Of a stretch of DNA of 64,000 nt, positions 1 through 25,972 are shown one piece after another; position 1 is the stretch's first letter, and each line of letters opens with the position of its first letter. Position numbers and translations under genes: made by a program. Source of the stretch: an uncultured Eubacteriales bacterium (GTDB taxonomy: Bacteria; Bacillota; Clostridia; Saccharofermentanales; UBA5734); NCBI GenBank assembly GCA_903835065.1, contig CAILLO010000009.1, forward strand, positions 1 to 64,000, in the 5' to 3' direction. Below the pieces are notes generated by a model. That model was not told where the DNA came from. It worked only from the letters and a program-made list of their open reading frames with translations, and ran no database searches.

Positions 1-39
1 GCCCGGTGCCGTACGACGGCCATAGCCGGAGTGACAGGC

Positions 40-141
40 AAGCGGCGCATCAGCTTCTACGGCAAGTCGGGAGACGTACGTTGACCGCTTCGCGGGCATC
101 GTGGCAGTCTCCCGCAACTACTTGCCGTTGAAGCTGACGAC
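40..141. repeat. Hairpin repeat element, copy 1
   Basis: A long imperfect inverted repeat. The outer arms CAGCTTCTACGGCAAGT (51-67) and ACTTGCCGTTGAAGCTG (120-136) pair with one mismatch, and CGGGAGAC (68-75) pairs with GTCTCCCG (107-114). The left flank (40-49) matches the reverse complement of the right flank of the copies near 25370 and 25475, so this copy lies in the opposite orientation. Its core resembles the hairpin at 25198. It sits immediately upstream of a CGD alpha remnant. Confidence 0.75.
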
Positions 142-175
142 ACACCGTCACGATGCTCGCCCTTGCCGGAAAGCC

Positions 176-289
176 CGCTGGAACGGATTCCTGCTCAGCG
201 AGTTCGAGGGGGACAAGTGCGTGCCGGGGTCCGCATCGGACCAGCTGCACAAGCAGCACGTGCTGTTGAAGCGCGCGCTGGGACGCTGA
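176..289 (+). pseudogene. C-terminal remnant of a CGD alpha-type isomerase
   Basis: The last 37 codons read like the C-terminus of the CGD alpha proteins in this window: WNGFLLSEFEGD corresponds to the YDGWLSSEYEGN type of sequence that carries the last metal-ligand glutamate, followed by the usual basic tail. Upstream of about position 176 the homology stops and is replaced by the hairpin repeat; the frame closes at a stop at 32-34. The rest of the TIM barrel is absent, so this is a truncated gene rather than one cut by the window edge. The beta-subunit gene follows 15 bases later, the order expected for an alpha-beta pair. Whether the 3' piece is translated is unknown. Confidence 0.7.
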
Positions 290-304
290 AGGGAGGCGGA
301 CGAC

Positions 305-709
305 ATGCTGGAACGCGACATCGTCCAGTCCCGGGGATTCCGGAACATCGGCAAGGGCGGGGCCGCCGTCGGTTTCGAAGTGGCGGTGCGTCTCCCCTAT
401 TACCGCGGCATCTGGCTGTCCCAGCTCCGGCCGGGTCGCCTGGTCGTCGACGGCGTGGAGATCGCGCCGGCCGACATCACCTGGGTCGTGGACGGCAAGG
501 CCTATTCCCAGGGCGAACTCGCGGCGCACGGCGACGTGCACTGGTTCCTGCTGGACACGGCGGTGCTGTCCGTGTGGAAGCCCGGCGGGCTCGCGCAGGG
601 GCTGCACGAAATCGAAATCGACTTCAGCTGGAGCGCCTCGTACATGCCGCCGTCGATGGACTCGGCGTTCGGCACGCGGCCCCAGAAGCGCCAGCTGGTG
701 CTGGTGTAG
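305..709 (+). CDS. CGD beta subunit-like protein (DUF6379 type), set 1
   Basis: A 134-residue protein of the small-subunit family that pairs with TIM-barrel alpha subunits in C-glycoside deglycosidases, which cleave the sugar-aglycone bond of 3-oxo-glycosides. Family marks visible: RLPYYRG near residues 36-42, a VDGVEI strand, HWFLLDTAVLSVWKPGGL in the second half, and a C-terminal strand ending in Gln-Leu-Val. There is no signal peptide, so it is cytosolic. The ATG follows AGGGAGG at good distance. Its expected alpha partner is only a 3' remnant upstream, so this subunit is orphaned unless it pairs with another alpha protein of the island. Family assignment is by comparison with the four other copies here. 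Confidence 0.8.
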   Translation: MLERDIVQSRGFRNIGKGGAAVGFEVAVRLPYYRGIWLSQLRPGRLVVDGVEIAPADITWVVDGKAYSQGELAAHGDVHWFLLDTAVLSVWKPGGLAQGLHEIEIDFSWSASYMPPSMDSAFGTRPQKRQLVLV

Positions 710-14142: not shown

Positions 14143-14187
14143 CGTGCCTCCTCACCTCGCCCTAGGACGTCAACGTACTCATGTTCC

Positions 14188-14300
14188 CCGCACCATGCCA
14201 CCCTGTTCCGGTGCGGTCGGAAGCTCCACTCGTGCCCGGCGGGCACGAGCCCGCTTCCGGCAACGACTAACTGAAAGCCGTGCTCTAAAAGTAGTCGTTG
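14188..14300. other. Run of three hairpins between SnoaL-like and CGD beta genes
   Basis: CCGCACC (14188-14194) pairs with GGTGCGG (14210-14216); CGGAAGC (14218-14224) pairs with GCTTCCG (14253-14259) around an inner CTCGTGCCCG/CGGGCACGAG stem; CAACGACTA (14261-14269) pairs with TAGTCGTTG inside the end of the SnoaL-like gene. No promoter was recognised for the downstream CGD set 3 unit, so these stems could be a terminator or an attenuator. Their ends do not match the hairpin family at 40 and 25276. Confidence 0.55.
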
Positions 14301-20342: not shown

Positions 20343-21755
20343 CTACTTCCGCACGCCCATGGTCACCTTGGCGCGGTCGGTCCACAGGAACGGAAGGTAA
20401 TAAGTCCGGATCTGGTGCGAGTAGTCGAACTCGTGCGGCTTCGACTCGTCGAGTCCGCCCGGCAGGTCGACGAGCACCTTGACCGTGCGCCCGTAGTTCC
20501 AGTAGTACGCTTGGATCGTGGCCATCTCGGCGAACGCGAACCGCTGGCCTTCGACTTCGAAGGAGATCCGGTCGGGTCCGTACAGGAAGCCGTCCACCGC
20601 GACGCGGCAGTCGTCGACGAGGCACAGCGGCACGCCGCGATAGTAGAAGCAGCGCGACTCGATCTCGAACCCGGCGATCTTCCCGTCCGCGCCGACGAGA
20701 TTCCGGTAGCCGAGGTTGCTGAGCGCCTGGGTGTCCGTGGATTTCTCGGCCAGGGTCGGCATCGGGAAGCCGGGGTATGTGCCGATGCAGCGGTCGAGCA
20801 TCGTCTGGAAGCGGCGCAGCGGCAGGAACGGGTCGCCCGGCACGGGGCCGCCCTCGTACTCGGAGGAGATGTAGCCGGCGTATCCGCCCTGGACCAGCAC
20901 GGGCAGGACGTTCGGGTAGTCGATGCTGGTCTCCTCGCAGTGCTCGTCCATCTCCCAGAACTTGCCGTGGATATGGAGGATGTAGGGCATGTGCTCGAGC
21001 AGGACCTTCGGATCGTGGGACTCCGTGCGCCAGCACTGGCGGAGGAAGGCGGCCTCGGCGGGCGGGCGCGGGTCGAGGAGCATGCGCTCGCAGCGGGCCC
21101 GGTAGGCCTCGTTGGATTCCTGCTCGTAGACCGTCTTCATGGTTTCGATCAGGACCGGGTCGACGTTCGCGGCGCGTGCGGCGCGCATGAAGTAGACGCC
21201 TTCGGTGATGTGCTTCACGAACATGCTCATGTCGGGGATGATGCCGAGATAGGGCGTGTTCTTCTTCCGGATGATCTCGATCGTCTCCTGGATAATGGGG
21301 AGGATCCAGGACGAGGAGCCGTTGTGGATCTCGACGCCGAGTTTGACGCCGTATTCCTCGCAGATCGGGGCGGCCTCGGCGAAGAGCCGTGGGTCGAAGG
21401 TGCCGCCGATGCGGAGGATCGGGCAGTCAATCGCGGCCGCGAACCGGACGTGGCGCTTCACGATGTCGACGGACTCCCGGAGGGTGAGGTCGCGGTGCCG
21501 GAACATCGTGCGGTCGACGAAGAAGTCGTGGGCGACGGTCTTCGTGCCGTATTTCCACATCATCTCCTTCCACAGCGCGAGGTCTTCCTGGTTCACGTCG
21601 GGGCAGTTGCGGAAGAAGAGCTGGCCGAGCAGCTCGATGCCGTTCACGCCCATGTTGGCCATGGCCGCGATGCACTGGTCCCAGGTGAGCTGGCCCTCCG
21701 CGACGAGCTGCTTGAAACTGTAGACCGTGACACCCCGCTTGATCAGGTTCATCAT
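20343..21755 (-). CDS. Single-chain CGD alpha-beta fusion, set 4
   Basis: 470 residues. Residues 1 to about 335 form the TIM-barrel alpha part, with all four ligand motifs: GVEIHNGSSSW, GIIPDMSMF, HIHGKFWEMDE and ISSEYEGG. After a linker around 335-350, residues to the end match the beta subunit: RCFYYRGVPLCLVDDCRVAVDG, FAEMATIQAYYWNYGRTVKV and a final VTMGVRK strand. The other four sets encode beta separately and mostly upstream, so this fusion also has reversed order. ATG overlaps the stop of a short upstream gene (ATGA). A frameshift artefact is unlikely because both domains read through one uninterrupted frame with preserved motifs. Confidence 0.88.
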   Translation of the reverse strand: MMNLIKRGVTVYSFKQLVAEGQLTWDQCIAAMANMGVNGIELLGQLFFRNCPDVNQEDLALWKEMMWKYGTKTVAHDFFVDRTMFRHRDLTLRESVDIVKRHVRFAAAIDCPILRIGGTFDPRLFAEAAPICEEYGVKLGVEIHNGSSSWILPIIQETIEIIRKKNTPYLGIIPDMSMFVKHITEGVYFMRAARAANVDPVLIETMKTVYEQESNEAYRARCERMLLDPRPPAEAAFLRQCWRTESHDPKVLLEHMPYILHIHGKFWEMDEHCEETSIDYPNVLPVLVQGGYAGYISSEYEGGPVPGDPFLPLRRFQTMLDRCIGTYPGFPMPTLAEKSTDTQALSNLGYRNLVGADGKIAGFEIESRCFYYRGVPLCLVDDCRVAVDGFLYGPDRISFEVEGQRFAFAEMATIQAYYWNYGRTVKVLVDLPGGLDESKPHEFDYSHQIRTYYLPFLWTDRAKVTMGVRK

Positions 21756-24960: not shown

Positions 24961-25197
24961 GTTCGTCGCCTCCTTTGCAGTTCGAGCATAACGGACTTCG
25001 TCGTTCGAGCGGCCCATGGACATCGGATGCCTCCTCTTTCCTGCATTCGGCTTCTCACGTCATAGATTCGATGGGGGAAGGGTAGCGGTCTAGCCTCGAC
25101 CAGCGAACGGACGAAGTCTGGAGCATCGTCGGGGTCTCCGAGTGTATGGAAGCCAGTTGGGCAGACCCACTCCGATCGGGTTGCCCGAAATCTCCTG
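24961..25197. other. Non-coding gap upstream of the isomerase pair
   Basis: About 240 bases with no convincing gene. It contains the alternative start region of the isomerase gene (24961-25026) and a TTCGAGC direct repeat at about 24978 and 25004. No clear promoter box was identified. The hairpin repeat cluster begins at its right end. Confidence 0.5.
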
Positions 25198-25252
25198 CGG
25201 CAAGTCGGGAGCCTGCCACGATGCCGAAGGCATCGTTCGGCTCCCGACTCGC
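25198..25252. repeat. Hairpin repeat element, short divergent copy
   Basis: AGTCGGGAGCC (25203-25213) pairs with GGCTCCCGACT (25239-25249), with an inner ACGATGCC/GGCATCGT stem. CGGCAAGTCGGGAG is identical to positions 60-73, and CTGCCACGATGCC matches the reverse complement of the copy 1 core, so it derives from the same family. Confidence 0.65.
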
Positions 25253-25275
25253 TCTAGAAACTCCGCGGCACTGGC

Positions 25276-25382
25276 GTCGTCAGCTCCAACGGACCCTATC
25301 GCGCCATGTTCAACGCTCCCCCGCTGTCTTCGAGGAAGCCAGCGGCCGCGTTGAAGGGTCCGTAGGAGCTGGTGCGCCGCTT
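25276..25382. repeat. Hairpin repeat element, copy 2
   Basis: CAGCTCCAACGGACCC (25281-25296) pairs with GGGTCCGTAGGAGCTG (25356-25371). Inside are TTCAACGC/GCGTTGAA and CCGCTG/CAGCGG stems, making one long stepped hairpin. The ends (GTCGTCAGCTCC and GGAGCTGGTGCGCCGCTT) are shared with the neighbouring copy 3. Confidence 0.8.
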
Positions 25383-25384
25383 GC

Positions 25385-25485
25385 GTCGTCAGCTCCGACG
25401 GAGAGTAGTTGCGGAAGCTACAACGCAGACCGCTCAGCGGTCAGCGTCCCGCTCCCGACTCTCCGTAGGAGCTGGTGCGCCGCTT
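25385..25485. repeat. Hairpin repeat element, copy 3
   Basis: CAGCTCCGACGGAGAGT (25390-25406) pairs with ACTCTCCGTAGGAGCTG (25458-25474); inside are GTTG/CAAC and a GACCGCTCAGCGGTC palindrome. The ends match copy 2, while the inner stem differs but keeps base pairing. Its right edge touches the stop codon of the VOC gene at 25484. Confidence 0.8.
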
Positions 25486-25972
25486 ACTTTATCGGATGCC
25501 CGCCGGTGCGGTCTTCGTTGTAGATCTCGAGGAACAGGCCGAGTTCCTTGCGCAGGTCGAGGTATGCGTACTCCATGCCCTCGCCCGTCTTGCCGTTGTC
25601 TTCCTTGGCGTGGATCCAGGGGTCCTTGCCGGTCAGCGCCTTGTGCTCCTTGACGACGTCGTCGAACTTGTCGCGGGTGCGGACGGCGATGTGGTGGATG
25701 CCGTTGCCGTGCTTCTCGAGCCACTCCTTGTAGACGGTCTCGTTCTTGGGCTGGATCAGCTCGAGCTCCATGCCGAAGGCCTTGCAGAAGGCGGCGCGGA
25801 ACTCGACCATGCCGGGCTTGCCGTCGACGAGCATCTTCGGGAACATGCCGGGGCCGAAGTCGATGACGTTCCACGGCCCGATGCCGTATTCCGTCTCGTA
25901 GTGCTTCACGGCGGCGTTGACGTCCGCGACGATGATCCCGATCTGGAGCAGATGGGAGATGAAGGGTTCCAT
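25484..25972 (-). CDS. VOC family protein (methylmalonyl-CoA epimerase-like), Gln variant
   Basis: 162 residues. The N-terminal strand reads LLQIGIIVADV, where epimerase relatives have a His ligand before the Gly-Ile; here it is Gln. The second ligand region GIHHIAVRT and the final Glu in LGLFLEIYN are kept. Gln is an accepted metal ligand in some glyoxalases. It is a close paralogue of 28006. ATG behind AGGAGG. Possible role: epimerisation or isomerisation of an oxo-sugar. Hairpin repeats lie directly after its stop. Confidence 0.83.
   Translation of the reverse strand: MEPFISHLLQIGIIVADVNAAVKHYETEYGIGPWNVIDFGPGMFPKMLVDGKPGMVEFRAAFCKAFGMELELIQPKNETVYKEWLEKHGNGIHHIAVRTRDKFDDVVKEHKALTGKDPWIHAKEDNGKTGEGMEYAYLDLRKELGLFLEIYNEDRTGGHPIK

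Follow-up and report, generated by a model that had tools for sequence, protein, structure and literature searches.

The closest described counterparts of this locus are DfgAB / EuCGD and other C-glycoside deglycosidases (CGDs; PDB 7bvs, 7bvr and 7dnm). An excerpt from a review of these enzymes assigns the metal to the alpha subunit and a helping role in substrate binding to the beta subunit (PMC12141560), and an extract from the study of MiCGD reports that neither CarB nor CarC alone is active on the substrate (PMC8563793). The window (the whole stretch of DNA that was analysed, 64,000 nucleotides) opens with a locus of this type, in which DfgB is matched by the beta gene over nearly the whole length whereas the alpha gene is reduced to its last 36 codons beside a hairpin repeat. 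The features are collected in Table 1. Our main reading, held at a rough probability of 0.62, is a decayed CGD operon formed by a deletion from the edge of the hairpin element into the alpha gene; its weakest link is the adjacency of contig C25 to C9, the contig that contains the window.

Table 1. Features identified at the left end of the window, with the evidence for each.
Feature	Coordinates	Strand	Evidence
Outer hairpin element, right-hand part (left arm on contig C25)	1..173	+	Repeat copies, fold, C25 overlap and arm pairing
Inner hairpin nested in the outer element	40..142	+	C47 units without it; found alone at other loci
Junction	174..178	+	Element consensus stops after 173 and alpha homology runs from 177-179; compared with C21 and C47 copies and with alphas
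CGD alpha gene remnant	179..289	+	Last 36 codons and stop TGA; alignment and whole-alpha query
GGGAGG, likely beta ribosome site	291..296	+	8 nt before ATG, read in the sequence
CGD beta subunit gene, DfgB type, 134 aa, intact	305..709	+	PF19906 and 7bvs_B

The beta gene was matched to the CGDB family (PF19906) with an E-value of 3.9e-32 over positions 1-112 of the 112 in the profile, and its whole-domain score of 110.8 bits lies above the curated cut-off of 27.6. The nearest PDB chain is DfgB (7bvs_B, E 4.8e-34), which covers nearly all of it. With a GC3 of 0.92, a sound reading frame and a sound ribosome site, the gene is intact, as the first-pass annotation had described it. The assembly contains six other betas, all of other lineages and each with its own alpha adjoining or fused; in relatives, three of the nearest loci also have an alpha directly 5' of beta. 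The present beta would now be without an alpha of its own, and is either on its way out or borrowing another one, as the first-pass annotation had allowed; it is not expected to work by itself, since neither subunit of MiCGD was active alone in the extract cited above. No nearer orthologue was found above 40-43% identity among 23 genomes of the family, nor a relative with the ancestral arrangement. A search of genome contigs returned one relative, 40% identical and labelled Bryobacterales, which is too distant to show that arrangement. Elsewhere in the window, a frame of 470 aa (20343-21755, minus strand) contains an alpha domain followed by a beta domain and is a natural alpha-beta CGD fusion, opposite in order to PDB chain 8qrz_A, where beta comes first and alpha second.

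The alpha remnant is formed by bases 179-286, WNGFLLSEFEGDKCVPGSASDQLHKQHVLLKRALGR, and a TGA stop at 287-289, so that the 37 final codons counted previously correspond to 36 sense codons plus the stop. In alignments, its 36 residues share 56% and 44% identity with the C-terminal ends of two alphas from G001 (a congener), 53% with that of one alpha of G022 (same family) and 31-36% with those of three alphas of the window's own assembly; the G001 and G022 references are the alphas whose genes immediately precede the nearest betas in relatives. Used as query against the assemblies G000 (the window's own), G001 and G022, a 295-aa alpha of the DfgA type from G001 recovered the tail independently at C9:176-283, with query residues 258-294 aligned at 53% identity (E 1.6e-4). 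Pfam gave no match to the 36-residue tail on its own. Judged by its sequence, the tail does not make up the xylose-isomerase-like TIM barrel with its metal site, and is a remnant rather than a working member of the family.

The change from alpha homology to hairpin repeat is as abrupt as had been noted, with the boundary at 177-179 and hairpin sequence being what the upstream frame reads (GC3 of 0.73, versus 0.92 in the tail and in beta). The outer element continues to GGAAAG, ending at 173, followed by bases that match neither side well, and the alpha gene resumes with TGG at 179. Comparison with the copies on C21 and C47 indicates that the final ~11 nt of the element are absent at the junction. 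Microhomology was considered as well: the end of the element (GGGGAAC) and the alpha sequence (TGGAAC) have GGAAC in common, but the preceding CCCGC does not fit the element and microhomology is therefore not claimed.

The element is a strongly folding repeat. Positions 1-180 of the window fold at -90.7 kcal/mol, where shuffled sequences average -67 (z -5.4) and none of 200 does as well; the main stem spans 37-167. The outer element starts with TAGAG and usually ends on the right with GTGCGGGGAAC (GAAAG-GYGCGGGGAAC), as identified on C21 and C47 and in similar form on C36 and C25; in the window/C25 copy the left edge (TAGAG) is complete and the right edge is cut. The inner hairpin, of ~103 bases, is enclosed by the outer one in the copies of the window, C21 and C25; at C36:92 kb it lies close to the left end of a different outer element, and it occurs without any outer element at C9:25 kb, C9:82 kb, C15, C73 and C24. 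Incomplete copies occur elsewhere too: the one on C24 begins mid-hairpin at TAG, and the inner hairpin at C36:44 kb is shortened. On C47 (82806-83158) the plain outer hairpin forms a tandem array with a period of 105, starting at a TAG stop.

By BLAST (E<=1e-3), window positions 1-176 match 17 other places in the same genome, several of them being pieces of one locus. The family comprises 15 loci in this genome, often as a hairpin within a hairpin, when C25/C9 is taken as one, pieces are merged, and four weak model matches on the reverse strand of, or adjoining, counted loci are dropped. A covariance model of the element (R1) has matches in 2 of the 23 genomes of the family, both from one genus, and no Rfam family reached its gathering score in the window on either strand. 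Two more copies were identified in the window, at 14154-14287 and 25190-25486 (both on the minus strand), and in each an edge coincides with the stop of the preceding gene; the former is located just 5' of another beta gene.

The first base of the window is also the first base of C9 (94,440 bp), so the gene break is only about 176 bases from a break in the assembly (82 contigs, 2.51 Mb, contamination 3.85), and both breaks fall in or next to a repeat. When window positions 1-300 were searched against the whole assembly, the end of C25 (76594-76714 of 76714) proved identical to window bases 1-121 (121/121), the next best copy in the genome, on C21, being 92% identical. Contig ends were compared for 81 of the 164 that exist, 70 readable and 11 masked, and among the 70 readable ends no overlapping pair other than C25/C9 carries the element. 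The 11 overlapping pairs share 141 bases (five), 138 (two), 121, 115, 85 and 76. The value of 141 is presumably the assembler's word length, this being a usual MEGAHIT maximum; with 121 bases the C25/C9 overlap is shorter, as might be expected if a folded repeat is spanned by no 141-base word, and it is therefore not a plain graph join. When the two contigs are joined, the outer arms of the element close. This pairing is no proof of adjacency, because the left arm on C21 is nearly the same, and an identity of 121 bases could also come from two recent identical copies. We infer that C25 adjoins C9 and that the break in the contig at this point is due to the repeated, strongly folded nature of the element.

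Leftward past the overlap, C25 contains the outer arm, a first complete element, the TAG stop of a Gfo/Idh-like gene, then an alpha in full, a beta and a regulator of the LacI type. The end of C25 thus belongs to another CGD cluster (LacI, beta, alpha, Gfo/Idh, element), and four of the other five complete sets of alpha plus beta are located on C9. The Gfo/Idh-like gene of C25 was named from its sequence, the profile scan covering the Gfo/Idh gene of the window itself. The first-pass annotation had suggested that the missing 5' part of alpha be sought beyond the element; followed as far as the assembly goes, what lies there is the Gfo/Idh stop and no 5' half of alpha. With the DfgA-type query from G001, this half was found on no readable contig of the assembly. 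The same query also matches parts of six full-length alphas in G000 that belong to other lineages and are at most 40% identical, and an alpha of the assembly itself used as query returns the same six. The missing half is possibly on contigs that are masked, or too short and unbinned.

Before the deletion, the stop codon of the Gfo/Idh oxidoreductase gene would have been followed closely by a tandem hairpin element, an outer hairpin enclosing an inner one, and further downstream by an alpha-beta pair of the DfgA/DfgB type. The deletion would run from a point within the final ~11 bases of the element to around codon 257 of alpha. It would have removed the alpha body, about 257 codons or at least about 0.77 kb, and spared the tail before the intact beta. 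The event was probably a deletion and not an aberrant insertion. The first-pass annotation had proposed either an insertion of the element or a rearrangement between elements; the loss of the alpha body at the element stands, while a clean insertion and a recombination of whole elements are both disfavoured by the missing right end.

An artefact of assembly or strain mixture is unlikely: in that case the terminal ~176 bases of C9 would be wrong or a minority path, and alpha would be intact in the population. The junction is indeed near a contig end and in a strongly folding repeat, and the draft is both fragmented and contaminated to the extent given above. Against this, the junction at 173-179 lies beyond the shared 121 bases and is continuous with sequence unique to C9, and a graph with words of 141, the length inferred from the overlaps, needs reads across it.

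An insertion of the element into alpha, with the 5' half surviving beyond it on a contig that is short, masked or not binned, appears rather improbable. The family looks mobile, with its 15 loci; the smallest contig among those examined has 1503 bases, so that shorter pieces may have been dropped, and 10 small contigs read N at their start. The usual right terminus of the element is missing at the junction, however, which disfavours a clean insertion, and a simple insertion into alpha is further disfavoured because C25, which has the same end, shows the stop of a Gfo/Idh gene and not alpha, and no readable contig holds a 5' fragment of alpha. Unequal recombination of a complete element after Gfo/Idh with another inside alpha, with loss of the interval, is very improbable, since a complete right terminus would remain and none is present, although elements are often found in tandem (C25, C47).

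The truncated alpha is a pseudogene remnant beside a repeat, an ordinary case of gene decay, probably by deletion. A lone beta gene at such a place need not mean a working enzyme, and the coincidence of the break with a contig end calls for caution. The hairpin family is the better lead than the truncation.

At 14 of the 15 loci an edge of the element lies on a TAG or TAA stop of a gene-like frame, the remaining locus (C73) being unclear. Of the eligible bases in the window, 5.1% have such a stop no more than 3 nt away, a share that becomes 9.9% when either of two edges may count, and the chance of 14 in 15 at that background is about 1e-13. This value is too good, because most edges were set visually while the stops could be seen. 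The loci of the same genome that were placed by R1 and are outside its training set give a fairer count, three of four being on a stop (C9:65 kb, C52 and C47); the R1 match on C21 starts inside the element and not on a stop. The congener G001 speaks against the pattern, none of its four R1 matches being exact: three have a stop beginning 5-7 nt before the element and one has no near stop. At two further places in G001, found by BLAST, the edge of the element is at a stop or within a few bases of it.

Stop usage in 48 gene-like frames of the window was 25 TAG, 20 TGA and 3 TAA, TAG being above expectation for a G+C-rich genome. As TAG is the commonest stop here, the choice of TAG says little, and it is the position that is informative. 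In G001 (C107) a weak element-like hairpin (E 0.0099) has on either side a nearly identical copy of the ~24 bases that end the neighbouring gene, and these flanks look as if an insertion had duplicated the gene end.

As a tentative proposal, these may be undescribed, genus-restricted, nested mobile hairpins whose insertion sites are gene stop codons. Their own first bases would rebuild TAG or TAA, so that genes stay unbroken while the elements spread. The window copy would then be exceptional, a later deletion having broken its neighbour. The pattern could also come from TA-targeted insertion together with selection against broken genes. If the targeting is true, placement on stop codons lets a mobile element persist in a gene-dense genome with little harm. 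No printed account of hairpin elements placed on stop codons was found among the open-licence papers searched.

Among known mobile repeats, the REP elements of RAYT transposases are likewise palindromic and intergenic; this reading was ruled out by the lack of any Y1_Tnp (PF01797) match in the genome, the control search matching in 5 of 14 genomes. Transposases of the IS630 type (DDE_3), considered as possible mobilisers of the element, were identified at four places in the genome. One of them (C2:18.6-19.8 kb) is an intact element with the ends GTACGACGTTCTT, located between two convergent genes that both end in TAG at its borders. The ends of the hairpin element differ from the inverted ends of this one examined copy, and a simple scan found no inverted ends at the other three DDE_3 loci. 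RUP, Correia and other bacterial MITEs, as characterized in an extract of PMC2229807, are short, non-coding, repeated, folding and intergenic, as the present element is, several copies of which start and end at TA. TA was identified at both ends of the copies on C1, C21, C36:92 kb and C9:65 kb, and is absent at C36:44 kb and in the first unit on C25. In some copies the shared flanks are longer, about 8-15 nt, and no clean rule of target duplication was found among the copies. By description, the inner hairpin resembles SMR-A of Haloquadratum (~110 bp), which has prominent inverted ends and inserts within the palindromes of other elements; SMR-A is archaeal, and the targets reported for it in the excerpted account (PMC3119063) are PATEs and IS605 elements, not stop codons.
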